From the NCBI GenBank assembly GCA_027485645.1, contig JAIXQR010000003.1:62001-126000 (forward strand): a stretch of 64,000 nucleotides of DNA. Reading direction: 5' to 3'. This document shows, one piece after another, positions 3,785 to 27,587 of the stretch. The notes under the pieces are model-generated. The model was not told the DNA's origin and did no database searches. It worked only from the letters and a program-made list of their open reading frames with translations. Position 1 is the first letter of the stretch; every line of letters starts with the position of its first letter. The stretch comes from a bacterium. GTDB lineage: Bacteria; Armatimonadota; Fimbriimonadia; Fimbriimonadales; Fimbriimonadaceae. Position numbers and translations under genes: made by a program.

Positions 3785-4140
3785 AATACGGCTTGCTTTT
3801 CTACGAAACCAGCGCCCAGTTTGCGGAGCGCGAATCCGAATCTGCCGGTCAATACTGGGGCGCCTGGAGCGCCTACATCGATCAGCTTGACGAGGCCGGC
3901 GTGATGGTACGCGGGGCAGGCGCGGGGCTCCAAGTTCCCGGAAGCGCAACTACGCTGAGAGCGACGGCGGGTGAGCTATCCATCCAGGATGGTCCCATCG
4001 CGGACACCAAGGAGCAACTCGCCGGGCTTGTTGTCCTCGAAGTTCCCTCCCTCGATGATGCGATGGCCTGGGCGAAGTTGGCACCTTGTGCGGAGGGTGG
4101 CGCGGTAGAAGTCCGCCCGATCCTCCCCGACCCAAGCTGA
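3781..4140 (+). CDS. YCII-related (DGPF) domain protein
   Basis: 119 residues, cytoplasmic, with the family's compact alpha/beta ferredoxin-like fold implied by the pattern KYGLLFYET at the start, the DGPIADTKEQLAG motif in the middle (DGPF type) and GGAVEVRPILP at the end. It overlaps the previous gene by ATGA and is followed after 7 bases by an ECF sigma factor gene. In many genomes DGPF proteins are encoded beside ECF42 sigma factors and are thought to act in the same pathway; the biochemical role is unsettled. Confidence 0.85.
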   Translation: MKYGLLFYETSAQFAERESESAGQYWGAWSAYIDQLDEAGVMVRGAGAGLQVPGSATTLRATAGELSIQDGPIADTKEQLAGLVVLEVPSLDDAMAWAKLAPCAEGGAVEVRPILPDPS

Positions 4141-4147
4141 TTCGTCC

Positions 4148-5326
4148 ATGACGGCTTCCGAGCGAGTTGATCTGATCTTTCGCGAGAGCTACGGCAAGGT
4201 CCTTGCTTATCTCCTCGCGCGAAGTTTCGACCTGCTTCGCTCGGAAGACGCCGTCAGCGCCGCCTTTGCCGCCGCGCTTATGGAGTGGAATGACGCGCTT
4301 CCACCAAATCCGGAAGCCTGGCTGTGCCGGGTCGCCCTCCATCGCGTCATCGACATCGAACGCCGAGAACGGCGGATCACCCCTTTGGAATCCCTCGCGG
4401 AGACCGCCGATCCCAACGAACCAGAAGACCCCACCATGCTCCCGGACGAGCGACTTCGCCTGTTTTTCCTCTGCACTCATCCCGCCATTGCCGCCGAAAT
4501 TCAGACCCCATTGATGCTGCAATTGGTGCTTGGTATGTCTGCGGAGAGCATGTCGGAGCTGTTCTTACTTCCTGCCGCGACCTTAGGCCAGCGACTCGTC
4601 CGAGCAAAGAGAAAAATTCGAGACGCGCAAATCCTCCCCGAGCTGCCAAACGCCGAAGAATTCCAGCAGCGCTTACCCGCAGTTCTGCAGGCGATTTATG
4701 GGCTGTATTGCCGAGACTGGGGAACCACCGAACCTACGGAAGCGATGGATCTCGCTCGCTCGTTGGTGATCGCGTCCGAAGGTGATCCGGAAGCGATGGG
4801 GTTATTCGCCCTGCTCTTGTTCTGCGAATCGCGCCGCACGGTGGTAAGGGATGTTTACATCCCGCTCTCGCAGCAGGATCCATCGGACTGGGACCAAGAA
4901 ATGATCAGCAGCGCCGAACAACTCCTGCAAGCGGCGGCGGCGCGCAAGTCACCGGGCCGTTTCCAACTTGAAGCGGCCATTCAATCTGCCCATGTTCAGC
5001 GCGCGTTCACCGGCTCTCCGAGCTTTGCCCAGATCGCGCGACTTTACGAGGCTCTCATCACGATGGCACCGACCACTAGCAATCGCCTTGGCCACGTTGC
5101 GGCGACTTTGGAGGCGAATGGTCCGGAAGCGGCACTCGCTTTGCTCTCCAGGATTGAGTTGACCGAGCCGTATTTGCCCTACGAAGCGGTGTCCGCCCAC
5201 GTGGCTCTTCGCCTGAATGACCTAACCGCGGTCCGAAAACATGCCGAAGCGGCACGTGCCCTGAGCAAGGACCCGAAGACTGCCGCATATTGGGCCGAAA
5301 TGATCCAGACGATCCAAAATCCGTAA
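4148..5326 (+). CDS. ECF42-type RNA polymerase sigma factor
   Basis: 392 residues. The N-terminal 170 residues carry sigma regions 2 and 4: FRESYGKVLAYLLARSFDLLRSED, then PEAWLCRVALHRVIDIERRERR for region 2 and a helix-turn-helix near residues 135-155. The C-terminal 200 residues are the helical TPR-like extension typical of group ECF42 (GRFQLEAAIQSAH is the hallmark segment; FLCTHPAI is the linker motif). Sigma factors of this group have no classical anti-sigma factor and are encoded with YCII/DGPF proteins, as here. The C-terminal domain probably takes the regulatory role. Confidence 0.9.
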   Translation: MTASERVDLIFRESYGKVLAYLLARSFDLLRSEDAVSAAFAAALMEWNDALPPNPEAWLCRVALHRVIDIERRERRITPLESLAETADPNEPEDPTMLPDERLRLFFLCTHPAIAAEIQTPLMLQLVLGMSAESMSELFLLPAATLGQRLVRAKRKIRDAQILPELPNAEEFQQRLPAVLQAIYGLYCRDWGTTEPTEAMDLARSLVIASEGDPEAMGLFALLLFCESRRTVVRDVYIPLSQQDPSDWDQEMISSAEQLLQAAAARKSPGRFQLEAAIQSAHVQRAFTGSPSFAQIARLYEALITMAPTTSNRLGHVAATLEANGPEAALALLSRIELTEPYLPYEAVSAHVALRLNDLTAVRKHAEAARALSKDPKTAAYWAEMIQTIQNP

Positions 5327-5390: not shown

Positions 5391-7322
5391 GTGGCACTGG
5401 CAGGACAGCGAACGGTTGTAGTAGTAGGCGGAGGGCTCGCGGGCCTGATGACCACGATGAAGTTGGCGGAGGCCGGACACAAGGTCAAGCTCTTCAGCAT
5501 CGTGCCGGTCAAGCGATCGCACAGCGTCTGCGCCCAAGGCGGCATCAACGGCGCGGTGAATCTCCGTGGTGAAGGCGATAGCCCATATCTTCACTTCGAA
5601 GACACGATCACCGGCGGCGACTTCTTGAACCACCAGCCCCCGGTCATGCGAATGGCCGAACGAGCTCCGGCAATCATTTACCTGCTGGACCGAATGGGCG
5701 TTCCGTTCAATCGAACTTCCGAAGGTTTGCTCAGCTTCCGCCGATTCGGCGGCACCCTCAAGCACCGAACCGCCTATGCGGGTGCAACCACTGGACAGCA
5801 ACTTCTCTACGCGCTGGACGAACAGGTTCGCCGATGGGAGGCCAGTGGCCTTGTTGAAAAGCGAGAAGGCTACGAGTTCGTTGGCTTAATCAAGGACAGC
5901 AAGGAAGCCTGCCGTGGCATCGTCGCTCAGAACCTGCGAACGATGGAAGTCGAGTCGTATCCCGCCGACGCGGTTGTGGTTTGCACCGGTGGAAACGGAC
6001 TCGTCTTCGGTCGAAGCACCAACTCCATCATCAACTCCGGTAGCCCGGTCAGCCTCTGCTACCAGCAGGGCGTCCACTACGGCAACCCAGAGATGGTTCA
6101 GATTCACCCCACCGCCATTCCGGGTGAGGACAAGTGCCGCCTCATGTCCGAGTCGGTTCGAGGAGAAGGCGGTCGAATTTGGGTTCCACGAAATCCAGAT
6201 GACCAGCGACTGGCTGCCGACATTCCAGAAGCCGATCGCTGGTACGTCTGCGAAGAAATGGACCCGGTCTACGGCAACCTGCTGAGCCGAGACATCGTCA
6301 GCTTCATCATCTACTGCGTTTGCCGAATGGGCAAGGGCATCAAGGGCCGCGAGCAGGTCTATCTCGATATCACGCAGCTTCACAAGGATCGCGGCGGTCC
6401 ATTCACGCGAGATCAGATCAACGACAAGCTCGAAGGCGTTCTCGAAATTTACGAGAAGTTCATGCGCGAAGACCCAATCACCGTTCCGATGCGCATCTAT
6501 CCGGCGGTCCACTACACGATGGGCGGCCTTTGGGTGGATTACGAGACCAACGGCGACGGAAGCTGGGACGTAGACAGCCATCGCAACCAGATGACCAACA
6601 TCCCAGGTCTGTTTGCCGCTGGCGAGGCCGATTACCAGTACCACGGTGCAAACCGACTCGGTGCCAATGCGCTCCTGAGTTGCTTGGTCGGTGGAGAAAT
6701 TGCCGCCCAGGGCGTCCAGGCTTACGTGCGCAACATGGAATCGGCCGGCGAGGACGTTTTGTCCAGCCTCGCCGAGGAAACCCGAAAGGCACGGCAGTCC
6801 GAGTACGACGGCTTCCGCAAGAGCCAAGGCACGGAGAACCCATACAAGCTGCACCAGGAGCTTACGGACATCATGTGGAACAACTGCGGCATCTGGCGCG
6901 TTCAGCGCGATTTGCTATCGGCCAAGGATCAGCTCGACGAGCTTTCCGTCCGAATCAACCAGTGCCACCTCATCGACGATTCCGGCTGGAACAATCAGGC
7001 GGTTCCGTTTGCCCGATCGGTCAAAAACATGATCGAAATGAGCAAAGCCATCGTTGGCGGATCGCTAACTCGAAACGAGTCCCGAGGCGCCCACTTCAAG
7101 ATGGACACGCCGGATCGAAACGACACCGACTGGCTGAAGACCACCTTGGCGCAATGGACGCCAACCGGCCCAACCTTCAGCTTCGAACCCGTAGACGTCC
7201 GCTACCTCGCCCCACGAGCCCGAAAGTATAAGGTTAACCAGAACATGATCGTTAAGAAGATCATGGGCGAGGACTTCCTTGAGAACTTGCTGGGCAAGAA
7301 AGTCGAAGAACCGGTCGCCTAA
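5391..7322 (+). CDS. sdhA: Succinate dehydrogenase / fumarate reductase flavoprotein subunit
   Basis: 643 residues. Oxidises succinate to fumarate with covalent FAD and passes electrons to an iron-sulphur subunit at the membrane. The Rossmann motif VVVGGGLAGL is at residues 8-18; SHSVCAQGGING holds the FAD-linking histidine; HPTAIPGEDKC and QYHGANRLGANALLS are the substrate and FAD regions. Length and motifs fit the Bacillus-like type rather than the E. coli type. Start is GTG 5391. The iron-sulphur and membrane-anchor genes are not next to it: the upstream gene is a sigma factor and the downstream one purA. Confidence 0.95.
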   Translation: MALAGQRTVVVVGGGLAGLMTTMKLAEAGHKVKLFSIVPVKRSHSVCAQGGINGAVNLRGEGDSPYLHFEDTITGGDFLNHQPPVMRMAERAPAIIYLLDRMGVPFNRTSEGLLSFRRFGGTLKHRTAYAGATTGQQLLYALDEQVRRWEASGLVEKREGYEFVGLIKDSKEACRGIVAQNLRTMEVESYPADAVVVCTGGNGLVFGRSTNSIINSGSPVSLCYQQGVHYGNPEMVQIHPTAIPGEDKCRLMSESVRGEGGRIWVPRNPDDQRLAADIPEADRWYVCEEMDPVYGNLLSRDIVSFIIYCVCRMGKGIKGREQVYLDITQLHKDRGGPFTRDQINDKLEGVLEIYEKFMREDPITVPMRIYPAVHYTMGGLWVDYETNGDGSWDVDSHRNQMTNIPGLFAAGEADYQYHGANRLGANALLSCLVGGEIAAQGVQAYVRNMESAGEDVLSSLAEETRKARQSEYDGFRKSQGTENPYKLHQELTDIMWNNCGIWRVQRDLLSAKDQLDELSVRINQCHLIDDSGWNNQAVPFARSVKNMIEMSKAIVGGSLTRNESRGAHFKMDTPDRNDTDWLKTTLAQWTPTGPTFSFEPVDVRYLAPRARKYKVNQNMIVKKIMGEDFLENLLGKKVEEPVA

Positions 7323-7331
7323 GCGACCCGA

Positions 7332-7353
7332 GTTCTAGGCATATGCCTAGAAC
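7332..7353. promoter_or_regulatory. 22-bp perfect palindrome overlapping the purA promoter
   Basis: Arms GTTCTAGGCAT and ATGCCTAGAAC with no spacer. It begins 9 bases after the sdhA stop and covers the place where the -35 element of the TATAAT at 7359-7364 should lie (TAGGCA, 17 bases upstream). A repressor bound here would block that promoter. It could alternatively be the transcript end of sdhA, though no T-run follows. Confidence 0.5.
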
Positions 7354-7358
7354 CCTGC

Positions 7359-7364
7359 TATAAT
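7359..7364 (+). promoter_or_regulatory. TATAAT -10 element of the purA leader transcript
   Basis: Perfect consensus -10. Transcription would begin near 7371, giving an mRNA leader of about 115 nt before the purA start at 7486. Confidence 0.55.
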
Positions 7365-7370
7365 CAATCA

Positions 7371-7440
7371 CGTTGAGATAAGGCTCAACGGCCAAAAGCC
7401 GGCGGATCCTCGACATTGACATCGAGGACGTCGGCTTTCT
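7371..7440 (+). promoter_or_regulatory. Structured purA leader with terminator-like hairpin
   Basis: First hairpin: CGTTGAG (7371-7377) with CTCAACG (7384-7390), at the expected 5' end of the RNA. Second, longer hairpin: outer stem AAAGCCG (7395-7401) with CGGCTTT (7432-7438), inner stem TCCTCGA (7407-7413) with TCGAGGA (7422-7428), followed by CTT. It could act as an attenuator or a 5' stabilising structure. It matches no riboswitch class that I recognise. Confidence 0.45.
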
Positions 7441-7485
7441 TGCGTGTGCAAGCGGCCACAGGAATCGGTTCAAAGGAGAAACGAA

Positions 7486-8775
7486 ATGCCAACTCTCGTA
7501 ATCGTCGGCGCCCAGTGGGGCGATGAAGCTAAAGGAAAACTCGTCGATGTGCTTGGGCACGAAGCTCAGATGGTCGTTCGCTATGCCGGTGGCAATAACG
7601 CCGGCCACACCGTCATCACCGGCGGCCAAACCTTCAAGTTCCAGCTGATCCCCGCAGGAATCCTGCATCCCGGAACCGTGGCCGTACTCGGAAGCGGAAT
7701 GGTCGTCTGCCCGCAGGGCCTACTCGAAGAGCTCGACCGCACCCGCGAGCAGCGCGCCGAACTGGGCGAGCTCATCATCAGCTCCGCCGCCCATGTTGTC
7801 TTCCCGTACCACCGAATGCTCGATGCGCTGGAAGAAGATGCGCGCGGAGAGAACCGAATCGGTACGACGAGCCGCGGAATTGGACCGGCTTACCAGGATA
7901 AAGTTGCACGATTCGGTATCCGCATGGGTGAGTTCGTCGACCCAACCCGCTTCAAGCAGCGGCTCCAAGAAGTTCTTGCCTACAAGAATCGCCTGCTCGA
8001 AATGTTCGGTTCCGCGCCTATCGCCTTTGAAGGTCTGTACGAGGAGTACAGCAAGTACGCAGATCGTCTGCGACCGTTCGTCCGCGACACCGAAGTCCTC
8101 GTGCAAAACGCGGTGGCTCGAAACGAGCGCGTGCTGTTCGAGGGTGCGCAAGGAACCTTCCTCGACCTCGATAGCGGAACGTACCCTTACGTCACTTCGT
8201 CTCACCCCGTCGCTGGCGGTGCGTGCTTGGGCACCGGCGTCGGCCCCCGCGCCATTCAAAATGTGCTTGGTGTATGTAAGGCCTACACCACCCGCGTGGG
8301 TAGTGGCCCGTTTGTGACCGAACTCGATGACGCCATCGGCCAGCAGATTCGAGACCAGGGGCAAGAGTACGGCACCGTCACCGGCCGCGGTCGCCGTTGT
8401 GGCTGGCTCGACCTAGTCGCCCTCCGCCATTCCTGCCGCCTCAACAGCATCAGCGGCCTCGCCGTCACCCGCGTCGACATCCTCAGCGGCATCGGCCCGC
8501 TCCAAGTGGCCACCGGCTACCGACTCGCTGGCGAAACCATCCCCACCCTCCCAACCAACCCCGCCGACCTCGCGCGGGTGGAAGCGGAATTGGTGGAACT
8601 CGAAGGCTGGAACGACGACCTCCGCGGTGCCCGAAAGCTCGAAGATCTCCCGACACCCGTCCGGAAGTACCTCGACTTCATCGAAGCCCAAACCGAAACC
8701 CCAATCGCCATAGTCAGCATCGGCCCCGACCGAGAAGAAACCATCATCACCCGCCCAGACCTAATCTGGGCCTGA
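7486..8775 (+). CDS. purA: Adenylosuccinate synthetase
   Basis: 429 residues. Joins IMP and aspartate using GTP, the first committed step to AMP. The GTP-binding loop GAQWGDEAKGK at residues 8-18 and GGNNAGHTV are diagnostic; the IMP-binding region TTSRGIGPAYQDK and the C-terminal SIGPDREETI are also present. ATG 7486 was chosen over upstream in-frame codons because AAGGAG (7473-7478) lies 7 bases before it. It is preceded by its own promoter and a structured leader. Confidence 0.97.
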   Translation: MPTLVIVGAQWGDEAKGKLVDVLGHEAQMVVRYAGGNNAGHTVITGGQTFKFQLIPAGILHPGTVAVLGSGMVVCPQGLLEELDRTREQRAELGELIISSAAHVVFPYHRMLDALEEDARGENRIGTTSRGIGPAYQDKVARFGIRMGEFVDPTRFKQRLQEVLAYKNRLLEMFGSAPIAFEGLYEEYSKYADRLRPFVRDTEVLVQNAVARNERVLFEGAQGTFLDLDSGTYPYVTSSHPVAGGACLGTGVGPRAIQNVLGVCKAYTTRVGSGPFVTELDDAIGQQIRDQGQEYGTVTGRGRRCGWLDLVALRHSCRLNSISGLAVTRVDILSGIGPLQVATGYRLAGETIPTLPTNPADLARVEAELVELEGWNDDLRGARKLEDLPTPVRKYLDFIEAQTETPIAIVSIGPDREETIITRPDLIWA

Positions 8776-23892: not shown

Positions 23893-24321
23893 ATGGAGAA
23901 AGAACCCGCAAGCATGGAGACCCAAACTGGTTCAGCTTGGTCGTCGGTTCGGCACGCGCTTTCAACCGCTCGCGCTCACGGCTTTGCCGAAGTTGAACTG
24001 AGCATTGGCGACACCAGCTTCTCCGCAACCCTCACCCCGGCTCCGGCAAAACCAAAACCCTCCGAAGCCACCACAACCGAGCCCGCGAAGGAAACCAAAA
24101 AGCCGATCAAGTCGAACTACGTTGGCTACTTCCGACCCACAAACCCACCGCTTGAAGTCGGACAAACCGTCACCGCCGGTCAAGTCGTCGGCCACATCGC
24201 CGTCCTCGGACTCGCAAACGACGTGGAGACCACCGTGGCTGGAACCATTCTAGAAGTCCTCGCCGAAGCCGACGTTCCCGTTCAATTTGGCCAAATCATC
24301 GCCTGGGTGGAACCAACATGA
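23893..24321 (+). CDS. BCCP-like protein lacking the biotin-attachment lysine
   Basis: 142 residues. The N-terminal 45 residues, a Pro/Ala/Lys-rich linker (about 48-73), and a C-terminal biotinyl domain (75-140, NYVGYFRPTNPP...) follow the plan of AccB, the biotin carboxyl carrier of acetyl-CoA carboxylase. But the turn that normally reads EAMKM reads AVLGL at 103-107, and the lysine position is Gly106. So this copy cannot be biotinylated. Plants and algae have similar BADC proteins, which replace BCCP in the complex and slow it; I infer a similar regulatory or scaffold role here. It is the first gene of an operon with accC. ATG 23893 is preferred over 23914; an upstream extension to 23770 overlaps the terminator. 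A true accB should exist elsewhere in the genome. Confidence 0.82.
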   Translation: MEKEPASMETQTGSAWSSVRHALSTARAHGFAEVELSIGDTSFSATLTPAPAKPKPSEATTTEPAKETKKPIKSNYVGYFRPTNPPLEVGQTVTAGQVVGHIAVLGLANDVETTVAGTILEVLAEADVPVQFGQIIAWVEPT

Positions 24322-24704
24322 CGCAATCCAAAACTCGAGGAAACACGCTGGTCAGCCTCCTGGCAACCCTCGCCATCATCGCCGTCCTCAGCGTCGCCCT
24401 CTTCTACGGTAGCGGCGCCTTCGGCGGCGAAAAGAAGAGCGCCCGGCCCGACGGAAAAGGCACCACCGTCCTCGGCGCGGCAAAATACGCCGCCAAAGAC
24501 GACGTCTGCCGCAGCAACCTCGGCCAAGTCCGTAGCGCCCTGCAAATCGTCGCCATGACCAACGAGGACCAGCCACCGGCCGATATCAAAGAAACCAAGC
24601 TTCCGTCCGAATTCTACGTTTGCCCGGTTGGCGGAGAAGCCTACGAATACAACCAAGCCGATGGCCTGGTGAAATGCCCCCACCCCGGCCACGGAAAATA
24701 CTGA
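24318..24704 (+). CDS. Type IV pilin / pseudopilin-like protein
   Basis: 128 residues. The N terminus RGNTLVSLLATLAIIAVL matches the prepilin pattern (Gly8 before the cleavage site, then a hydrophobic helix), but the first residue is Asn rather than Phe and position +5 is Ser instead of the conserved Glu. Residues 50-128 form a small soluble domain with Cys pairs (DDVCRSN, FYVCPVGG, VKCPHPGHGKY). Overlaps the previous gene (ATGA) and abuts accC, so it is embedded in the fatty-acid operon. Processing by a prepilin peptidase is plausible but unproven. Confidence 0.68.
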   Translation: MTQSKTRGNTLVSLLATLAIIAVLSVALFYGSGAFGGEKKSARPDGKGTTVLGAAKYAAKDDVCRSNLGQVRSALQIVAMTNEDQPPADIKETKLPSEFYVCPVGGEAYEYNQADGLVKCPHPGHGKY

Positions 24705-26057
24705 ATGTTTAAGAAGATCCTCATCGCAAACCGAGGCGAAATCGCCTGCCGAGTCATCCGCGCTTGCCGCGAACTCGGCGTCCTCAGCGTTGCCGTCCAC
24801 AGCGAAGCCGACCGAGAAAGCCTCCACGTCAAACTCGCCGACGAAGCCGTTTGCGTCGGCGCAGGATCAAACACCGACAGCTACCTGAACCTCGCCAACG
24901 TGCTGATGGCCTGCCAAATCTCCGGCGCCGAAGCCGTCCACCCCGGCTACGGCTACTTCAGCGAGCGCGCCAACTTCGCCATCGCCCTCCAAAGCCTCGG
25001 CATCGCCTTCATCGGCCCCCCGCCCGGAGCCATTGAGGCCATGGGCGATAAGGCCAAAGCCAAAGCCGCCGCCATCGCCGCCAACGTCCCCGTCGTCCCC
25101 GGCTCCCCCGGCGCGGTGCCCAACGAAAGCGTCGCCCTCGACATTGCCGATGAGATGGGCTACCCCATCCTCCTCAAGGCCGTCGCCGGTGGCGGAGGCC
25201 GAGGCATCCGCCGCGTCGATGGCCCCGACGACCTCGCTCGCCTCTGGAAAATGGCTCAAGCCGAAGCCCAGGCCAGCTTTGGCTCCGGCGAAATCCTCAT
25301 CGAAAAGTGCGTCGTCCGCCCTCGCCACGTCGAAATCCAAGTCATCGGCGACCAGTACGGAAACATGGTCTATCTCGGCGAGCGCGAGTGCTCCATCCAA
25401 AACCTGCGCCACCAAAAGATCGTTGAAGAAGCCCCCTTCGCCCAAATGCGGCCCGAAGTCCGAAAAGCGATGGGCGAAGCCGCCGTCCGCGTTGCCCTCA
25501 GCGTCGGCTACCAAAACGCCGGAACCGTCGAATTCCTCCTCGATGACGACCACAACTTCTACTTCCTAGAAATGAACACTCGCCTCCAGGTCGAGCACCC
25601 GGTCACCGAGGAAATCACCAATCTCGACCTCGTACACCTCATGCTCCGGATCGCCAGCGGCGAAAAGCTGCCGATCACTCAAGACGATGTGAACCTAGAG
25701 GGCCACAGCATCGAGGCCCGCATCACCGCGCAGGACCCCGACAAAGACTTCGCCCCGAGCACCGGCCAAATCACCGAATGGGTCGCCCCGAGCGGCCGCG
25801 GAGTGCGGATGGAAACCCACGCCTACGCCGGTTTCTCCGTTTCCCCGTATTACGACCCCCTCATCGCGAAGCTCATCGTGAAAGCCCCCACCCGCGATCA
25901 GGCCGTGGCGAAACTTGCCGTCGCGCTGAACGAGTTCCAGATCGGCGGAATCCAGACAAACCTTCCGTTCCTGCGCCGCCTGGTGGTGAGCGACGCGTAC
26001 AAAACCGGTGAGTTCGATACCGGCTGGGTGCCGCGATTCCTTGAGGGCTTGGGTTGA
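24705..26057 (+). CDS. accC: Biotin carboxylase subunit of acetyl-CoA carboxylase
   Basis: 450 residues. Carboxylates biotin on the carrier protein using ATP and bicarbonate, the first half of malonyl-CoA synthesis. Signatures: FKKILIANRGEIACRVIRA at the start, HPGYGYFSERANFA, the ATP-grasp glycine loop KAVAGGGGRGIR, GERECSIQNLRHQKIVEE and EMNTRLQVEHPVTEE. Starts directly after the pilin-like gene; its stop overlaps nusB (TTGA). Confidence 0.97.
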   Translation: MFKKILIANRGEIACRVIRACRELGVLSVAVHSEADRESLHVKLADEAVCVGAGSNTDSYLNLANVLMACQISGAEAVHPGYGYFSERANFAIALQSLGIAFIGPPPGAIEAMGDKAKAKAAAIAANVPVVPGSPGAVPNESVALDIADEMGYPILLKAVAGGGGRGIRRVDGPDDLARLWKMAQAEAQASFGSGEILIEKCVVRPRHVEIQVIGDQYGNMVYLGERECSIQNLRHQKIVEEAPFAQMRPEVRKAMGEAAVRVALSVGYQNAGTVEFLLDDDHNFYFLEMNTRLQVEHPVTEEITNLDLVHLMLRIASGEKLPITQDDVNLEGHSIEARITAQDPDKDFAPSTGQITEWVAPSGRGVRMETHAYAGFSVSPYYDPLIAKLIVKAPTRDQAVAKLAVALNEFQIGGIQTNLPFLRRLVVSDAYKTGEFDTGWVPRFLEGLG

Positions 26058-26728
26058 TCTTTTCCAAATCCCGCCGCCACGCCCGCGAACTCGCCCTCCG
26101 CGTTCTCTACGAATCGGAATATGGCGACCGACCCGCCGCCGAAATCCTTGCCGAAGCCTTCACCGAAGTGCCGCAAGTCACCGCTGGCGTTGTCGAGCCA
26201 TCCCTGCTGTACAACCCAGATGACGACGGCTACTGGACCCAGCTCGAGTACGGCTTCAACCCCGAACTCGAACGCTACACCGAAGAGCTCGTCTACGGCG
26301 TCCAAAACCAACAAGCCCGCATCAACGAGCTGATTCAAGACCACCTGCACGACTACGAGCTCGGCCGCCTCGCCGCGATGGACCGCATCGTCATGCAAAT
26401 CGCCACCTTCGAGCTGCTCTACGTCCCCTATATCAGCCCCTTCATCACCATCAACGAAGCCATCGAAATCGCCAAGAAATTCTCCAGCGTCGAGAGCGGC
26501 AAGTTCGTAAACGGCGTACTGGGCAACTTGTATAAAGTCACCGAGAAGCACCACTGGGACCCGAAAATGGGCGAAGCCGAACCCGAGGTCTACGTGGCTC
26601 CGGAGGTGAAAGAAGAATTGGTAGAAGAAGTCGTCGACGCCGATTCGCAAGAAGGCAAAAACGCCCGCCGCTTTGGTTGGGTGCTGAAAACCGACCTCAT
26701 GCCCGAGCCGGCCAAGCCGTCAGAATAG
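26054..26728 (+). CDS. nusB: Transcription antitermination protein NusB with extra segments
   Basis: 224 residues against about 140 usual. NusB binds boxA RNA together with NusE to build antitermination complexes. The family pattern is clear: RRHARELALRVLYESEYG, AAMDRIVMQIATFELLY, TINEAIEIAKKFSSVESGKFVNGVLGNL. Extra material is an insertion of about 45 residues after the first helices (VPQVTAGVVEPSLLYNPDDD region) and an acidic C-terminal tail of about 50 residues. Start TTG 26054 overlaps the accC stop. Confidence 0.92.
   Translation: MIFSKSRRHARELALRVLYESEYGDRPAAEILAEAFTEVPQVTAGVVEPSLLYNPDDDGYWTQLEYGFNPELERYTEELVYGVQNQQARINELIQDHLHDYELGRLAAMDRIVMQIATFELLYVPYISPFITINEAIEIAKKFSSVESGKFVNGVLGNLYKVTEKHHWDPKMGEAEPEVYVAPEVKEELVEEVVDADSQEGKNARRFGWVLKTDLMPEPAKPSE
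26721..26726 (+). promoter_or_regulatory. CAGAAT, putative -10 directly before folD
   Basis: Six bases before the ATG at 26733, inside the end of nusB; would give folD its own leaderless start in addition to operon read-through. Confidence 0.3.
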
Positions 26729-26732
26729 AACC

Positions 26733-27587
26733 ATGCCCGCCCAAATCCTTGATGGCCTCGCCCTGTCGAAACAACTCCGCGCGGAGTTGAAAGAGCGCGT
26801 CGGCGTCCTCAAAGAAAAAGGCATCACCCCGCGCCTCGAAGCCATCGTTGCCGCCCAAGACCCCGCGAGCCTGGCCTATGTCCGCATGAAGCGAAAGTGG
26901 GCCGAAGCCGCCGGAATGGAAAGCGGCTCCTGGGAAGCCACCGCCGAAACCACCCAAGAAGAACTCCTCGCGAAGGTGCATGAGCTCAACGCCAACCCCC
27001 TCGTCCACGGCGTCCTCATCCAGCACCCGCTGCCCAAACACCTCGACGAAAACGCCGCCCTCATGGCCCTGGGGTCAGAAAAAGACGTCGACGGCATCAC
27101 CCCGCAATCGCTCGGCCGCCTCGTCGGCGACCTCCCCGGCTTCCGCTGCGCCACCCCGCTCGGAATCACCAAGATCCTGAAGCACTACCAAATCCCCACC
27201 GCCGGAAAGCACGCCATCGTCATCGGCCGCAGCGTCATCCTCGGCAAACCGATGGCCCTCATGCTCCTGCAAATGAACGCCACCGTAACCATCGCCCACA
27301 GCAAAACCGAAAACCTCCCCGCCCTCTGCCGCCAAGCCGATATCGTAGTAGCCGCCGTAGGCCGCGCCGAACTGGTGAAAGCCGACTGGATCAAACCCGG
27401 CGCGGTAGTCGTGGATGCCGGCTACAACAAAGTAGAGGGCCGAACCCACGACGTCGGCGACGTCGACTTTGAGGGCGTTTCGGAAGTAGCGTCGTGGCTA
27501 ACGCCGGTGCCTGGTGGGGTGGGGCCGATGACGGTGGCGAGTCTGCTGGCGAACTGCGTTGAGGCTGCGGAGCTGAGCGCAATTTAG
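26733..27587 (+). CDS. folD: Methylenetetrahydrofolate dehydrogenase / cyclohydrolase
   Basis: 284 residues. Bifunctional enzyme of one-carbon metabolism (5,10-methylene-THF to 10-formyl-THF). Signature AYVRMKRKWAEAAGM includes the catalytic Lys region, VHGVLIQHPLP is the second, and the NADP site VIGRSVILGKPMALML the third; ends with PGGVGPMTVASLLANCV. Last gene of the accB-like to folD operon; the AT-richer island begins right after its stop. Confidence 0.96.
   Translation: MPAQILDGLALSKQLRAELKERVGVLKEKGITPRLEAIVAAQDPASLAYVRMKRKWAEAAGMESGSWEATAETTQEELLAKVHELNANPLVHGVLIQHPLPKHLDENAALMALGSEKDVDGITPQSLGRLVGDLPGFRCATPLGITKILKHYQIPTAGKHAIVIGRSVILGKPMALMLLQMNATVTIAHSKTENLPALCRQADIVVAAVGRAELVKADWIKPGAVVVDAGYNKVEGRTHDVGDVDFEGVSEVASWLTPVPGGVGPMTVASLLANCVEAAELSAI

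Follow-up and report, generated by a model that had tools for sequence, protein, structure and literature searches.

A Lysine-Less AccB Homologue at the accC Locus of Armatimonadota, a Candidate Non-Biotinylated Subunit of Acetyl-CoA Carboxylase

The locus and its AccB-like protein

The window analysed here is a 64,000-nucleotide stretch of contig JAIXQR010000003.1 (positions 62,001 to 126,000; assembly GCA_027485645.1) from a member of the Fimbriimonadaceae in the phylum Armatimonadota. It contains an AccB homologue without the biotinyl lysine, a biotin carboxylase gene, and their neighbours, listed below with coordinates in the window.

23893–24321, + strand: AccB homologue without the biotinyl lysine, 142 aa (translation, Pfam/NCBIfam, alignment, and model)
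24208–24210, + strand: GGA codon of Gly106 at the biotinyl-lysine position (numbering and alignment to EAMKVFNE)
24318–24704, + strand: pilin-like ORF, 128 aa (N-terminal methylation motif just under the Pfam cut-off)
24705–26057, + strand: accC, biotin carboxylase subunit, 450 aa (Pfam/NCBIfam and comparison with the second biotin carboxylase of the genome)
26054–26728, + strand: nusB, a conserved neighbour overlapping the accC stop
26733–27587, + strand: folD-like gene, a conserved neighbour (synteny; named by eye from the sequence)

The start of the AccB-like gene is uncertain (ATG at 23893 or at 23914), while its stop overlaps the start of the pilin-like ORF by 4 bases (ATGA), and the end of that ORF abuts the accC ATG. 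The initial annotation placed the AccB-like gene at the head of an accC operon; it is indeed the first gene and is coupled, but it does not touch accC, as the unexpected pilin-like ORF lies between them. This ORF is conserved in that position across much of Armatimonadota, is translationally coupled in many families of the phylum, and has a conserved tail, CPVGGEAYEY...CPHPGH; as a speculation, it could be a membrane anchor in the acc operon.

The order efp ... AccB-like gene, pilin-like ORF, accC, nusB, folD recurs in many Armatimonadota families. Because efp-accB-accC is also the order of lysine-bearing accB in other phyla (e.g., loci L158, L171, and L174), the lysine-less gene occupies the usual place of accB. 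Linkage to accC is not essential, since the AccB-like gene stands apart from it in families f3 and f4, in the f1 genomes G004, G129, and G130, and in most Chloroflexota.

Translation and alignment confirm that Gly106 stands in place of the biotin lysine. The surroundings of this residue are GHIAVLGLANDVE, with AVLGLANDV aligned to EAMKVFNEI of the canonical AccB, whose matching stretch in the same genome (L003, C4:366159) is GLIEAMKVFNEIP. The BCCP/AccB equivalog motif, of the E-A-M-K-M/V type with its biotinyl lysine, is absent, and without the lysine this site cannot carry biotin. The protein scores above the Pfam Biotin_lipoyl cut-off (26.8 bits; cut-off 22.1) and matches the NCBIfam BCCP model TIGR00531 with an E-value of 8.7e-11, its 42.5 bits being far under the equivalog cut-off of 115.2. 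A family profile of 35 sequences, mostly lysine-less with a few lysine-bearing homologues, aligns to residues 19–175 of E. coli AccB, N-terminal domain included (E 4e-28). Compared with canonical AccB, the protein also has a "thumb" loop 5 residues shorter, a feature missing from the initial annotation.

The AlphaFold2 model has a mean pLDDT of 86, rising to about 97 over the barrel, and comprises an N-terminal helix (residues 13–29), a beta-hairpin (33–46), an Ala/Pro-rich linker, and a C-terminal barrel (70–141), with Gly106 forming the turn between strands 98–104 and 107–112. Among PDB structures it most closely matches the E. coli AccB biotinyl domain, then AccB complexed with biotin carboxylase, and Arabidopsis BCCP1 is matched as well; a separate PDB search for BADC gave no match bearing that name. 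The protein is thus predicted to combine the barrel-sandwich biotinyl fold with the N-terminal AccB module of BCCP/AccB, and the profile alignment and predicted fold agree with the earlier claim that AccB architecture is kept.

A Biotin_lipoyl search of the genome hits seven places, including long lipoyl-type proteins and the AccB-like protein itself. The initial annotation had left the canonical accB to be found, and a separate, lysine-bearing AccB (EAMKVFNE) is present away from the AccB-like locus, flanked by surE-like and hom-like genes. A BCCP of catabolic type (EAMKT) adjoins a gene whose start is HMG-CoA lyase-like by eye. There are two biotin carboxylases in the genome, the AccC encoded at 24705–26057 and one 47% identical, adjoining a gene that by eye is enoyl-CoA-hydratase-like. 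The second is probably of catabolic type, so the AccC of this locus is probably the sole fatty-acid-type AccC of the genome.

Conservation of the glycine and recurrent loss of the lysine

Whether the glycine is conserved in relatives had been posed as a check on the initial annotation, and it is: it occupies the lysine position in 20/20 genomes of the source genus and in 39/39 distinct sequences of the source family (Fimbriimonadaceae). The second match in all 20 genus genomes is a normal AccB with the lysine. In 19 of the 20, accC lies ~360–440 bases downstream of the AccB-like gene; in the twentieth (G004) it is on another contig. Nearly every family genome that retains this accC also has the AccB-like gene. 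In two genome-reduced members of the family (G132 and G133, both of genus g24, 1.5 Mb), the AccB-type query finds nothing and this AccC lacks an orthologue, the only biotin carboxylase left being 47–48% identical to it; this co-loss counts as one event, in two related genomes of one genus.

The AccB-like protein is 83.5% identical to that of the closest relative, and AccC is 97.8% identical in the same pair. For this single pair, in which dS is high and the values are rough, dN/dS of the AccB-like gene is 0.043 (YN00) or 0.13 (NG86); canonical AccB has values of similar magnitude (0.067 and 0.06, respectively), with AccC at 0.007 (YN00). Judged from these sequence comparisons, the AccB-like protein is under purifying selection and its constraint is clear, and a pseudogene is rejected on the dN/dS values. 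An error in sequencing or assembly as the source of the altered lysine codon, to which we assign a negligible probability, is refuted as well, because all 39 orthologues have the glycine under purifying selection, the same residue recurring in independent genomes whose surrounding sequence has diverged.

From 64 genomes or MAG records of Armatimonadota, picked to spread over families rather than at random, we then read AccC together with the AccB-like protein of the efp-accB-accC locus, whose gene is linked to accC in all except G175, G176, and G130. The lysine is replaced in 44 of the 64 and kept in 20 (G 28, K 20, R 7, N 3, H 2, D 2, S 1, T 1). Families f12, f13, and f35 each include both lysine and non-lysine states, several different replacements occur within each of f10 and f12, and the shortened thumb is common to most of these proteins, lysine-bearing or lysine-less. 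With the AccC tree as a proxy for the species tree, unordered parsimony gives 5 changes between lysine and non-lysine; when regain of the lysine is disallowed, there are 10 losses on the rooting as drawn, at least 6 over all rootings, and 5–10 in 40 bootstrap trees. These counts suggest that the lysine was lost at least 6, and about 10, separate times in Armatimonadota, if it was never regained. A further lysine-to-arginine case (EVMRLSDE) is seen in an Armatimonadota AccB-like fragment at a contig end (L196, 3–287).

Lysine-less BCCP-like proteins also occur in other phyla. A scan of genome contigs and reading of the loci identified one with ETLGIRNPV adjoining accC in Eremiobacterota. Those of Chloroflexota have EALNVLNE in Ktedonobacteria and DVLGVSHEV in others, with efp directly upstream of the lysine-less gene, and a Ktedonobacteraceae MAG (L162, 1032–3442) has three neighbouring genes: accC, one for a lysine-less AccB (EVLHIPSE), and one for a canonical AccB (EAMKVFNE). 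The lysine is absent from 15 of the best 30 matches in the Chloroflexota sample, for which the query was biased toward lysine-less proteins. A canonical, lysine-bearing AccB is also present in 10 of 11 genomes from Chloroflexota, Eremiobacterota, and Armatimonadota; the eleventh, the possibly incomplete SZAS-4 MAG, has no such match. A tree built from all the BCCP-like proteins has too few columns and is poorly resolved as to whether one loss or several lie behind the lysine-less proteins of different phyla. Separately, locus L149 (Merdimmobilis) contains two AccB ORFs (3983–4423 and 7322–7762) that are identical over the stretch compared, reflecting either duplication or an assembly artefact.

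Proposed role in acetyl-CoA carboxylase

We propose, with a probability of roughly 0.6, that the AccB-like protein is a non-biotinylated AccB paralogue that belongs to the subcomplex formed by biotin carboxylase and BCCP within acetyl-CoA carboxylase, where its part is probably structural or regulatory. This partly supports the suggestion of a built-in regulator or scaffold in the initial annotation. In favour are the full AccB plan, the place of the gene in a tightly packed operon with accC, purifying selection, the normal AccB encoded elsewhere, the recurrent replacement of the lysine, and the co-loss in G132 and G133; against it count the lineages in which the gene is not linked to accC and the narrow basis of the co-loss. 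The N-terminal helix and beta-hairpin would bind AccC, this being the part that keeps the biotin carboxylase tetramer of Chloroflexus together, and the protein would co-assemble with canonical AccB. Carboxybiotin would then be carried by canonical AccB alone, and the AccB-like protein would determine how the complex is built, in what stoichiometry, or how active it is. An assembly factor ("glue") or scaffold is somewhat more likely than an inhibitor, in view of the coupling of the gene to accC and its presence in almost all family genomes that retain this accC.

As an inhibitor, the lysine-less protein would compete with holo-AccB for AccC and lower acetyl-CoA carboxylase activity under some condition. 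The anatomy would be the same as that of a subunit, co-expression with accC would supply a built-in dose, and a pH/light model in which plant BADC competes with BCCP has been described (PMC7712654). However, a protein fixed in the accC operon family-wide would need a release signal, and none is seen, while plant BADC binds BC and BCCP and aids their assembly, and its inhibitory action in plants has been argued against (PMC11926652); we therefore regard inhibition as unlikely.

Operon position alone would equally suit a regulator of expression, that is, a protein that has lost its enzyme role and senses or represses its own acc operon. E. coli AccB has been reported to regulate accBC in this way. 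The AccB-like gene is the first of the acc operon, its product retains the N-terminal AccB region, and loss of the lysine would release it from catalysis, but no DNA-binding fold is evident in the AlphaFold model and Chloroflexota keep the gene without an adjoining accC, making such a regulator improbable. Very improbable, too, is a remnant of an old accB, either decaying or with a function unrelated to acetyl-CoA carboxylase: the lysine loop varies between lineages and the protein diverges faster than AccC, but its dN/dS is far under 1 and of the order of canonical AccB, the glycine is invariant in the family, and ORF, fold, and operon are intact across much of Armatimonadota.

The subunit reading fits into a broader picture that we hold at about even odds. 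In this picture, at least three phyla (Armatimonadota, Chloroflexota, and Eremiobacterota) have a biotin-less AccB at the usual accB locus and a second AccB elsewhere that carries biotin, the losses in Armatimonadota were many and independent, plants are comparable, and heteromeric acetyl-CoA carboxylase would have turned repeatedly to a non-catalytic BCCP as an architectural solution. How this essential enzyme assembles is poorly understood, and whether plant BADC acts as glue or inhibitor is disputed. If the AccB-like protein is a subunit as proposed, this dispute could be addressed in a simple system, with a bacterial counterpart that is coupled to accC and exists naturally both with and without the lysine; biotin loss in a BCCP paralogue would also be a repeated evolutionary event.

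Comparison with known systems

The AccB-like protein shares with canonical AccB/BCCP (E. coli AccB; TIGR00531) the full domain plan, the fold, and the position in the acc operon, but differs in lacking the biotinyl lysine, in its shortened thumb, and in its score far under the equivalog cut-off. Our literature search found no report of a lysine-less AccB in bacteria, an absence that is not proof. New here is a phylum-wide pattern of lysine-less AccB-like proteins in bacteria, which probably represent a kind of subunit hitherto reported from plants alone. In 146 Cyanobacteriota genomes, a BADC-domain query, which makes for a weak test, hit nothing stronger than weak AccB-like matches, usually a single one in each genome, and no BADC-like second copy stood out. 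A cyanobacterial source of BADC has no support from this search, and neither it nor the poorly resolved protein tree gave evidence of common descent with plant BADC.

Non-catalytic "glue" subunits of bacterial acyl-CoA carboxylases have been mentioned (PMC11926652). They resemble the proposed subunit in being small and non-catalytic and in assembling a biotin-dependent carboxylase complex. They are not known to be AccB homologues. A mechanistic likeness may lie in BC1 of Chloroflexus aurantiacus, where dimers of biotin carboxylase come together as a tetramer, with higher activity, through the BCCP beta-hairpin rather than the biotinyl core (PMC11077971). In that system, unlike the present one, the BCCP is biotinylated and fused to biotin carboxylase in one polypeptide.

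Plant BADC, described as unique to the plant enzyme (PMC11926652), is the system that the proposed subunit would most resemble in its working. Like BADC1-3 of the plastid heteromeric ACCase, the AccB-like protein is a BCCP homologue that lacks the biotinylation motif and occurs alongside a normal BCCP. BADC1-3 are non-catalytic (PMC11926652), plastid-located, and not encoded in an operon, whereas the AccB-like gene sits in the accC operon and its product in Armatimonadota has the shortened thumb loop. Based on the separate canonical AccB, the conserved glycine, the conserved linkage to accC, and the recurrent loss of the lysine with the fold kept, the label "BADC-like" given in the initial annotation is fair as a functional analogy.
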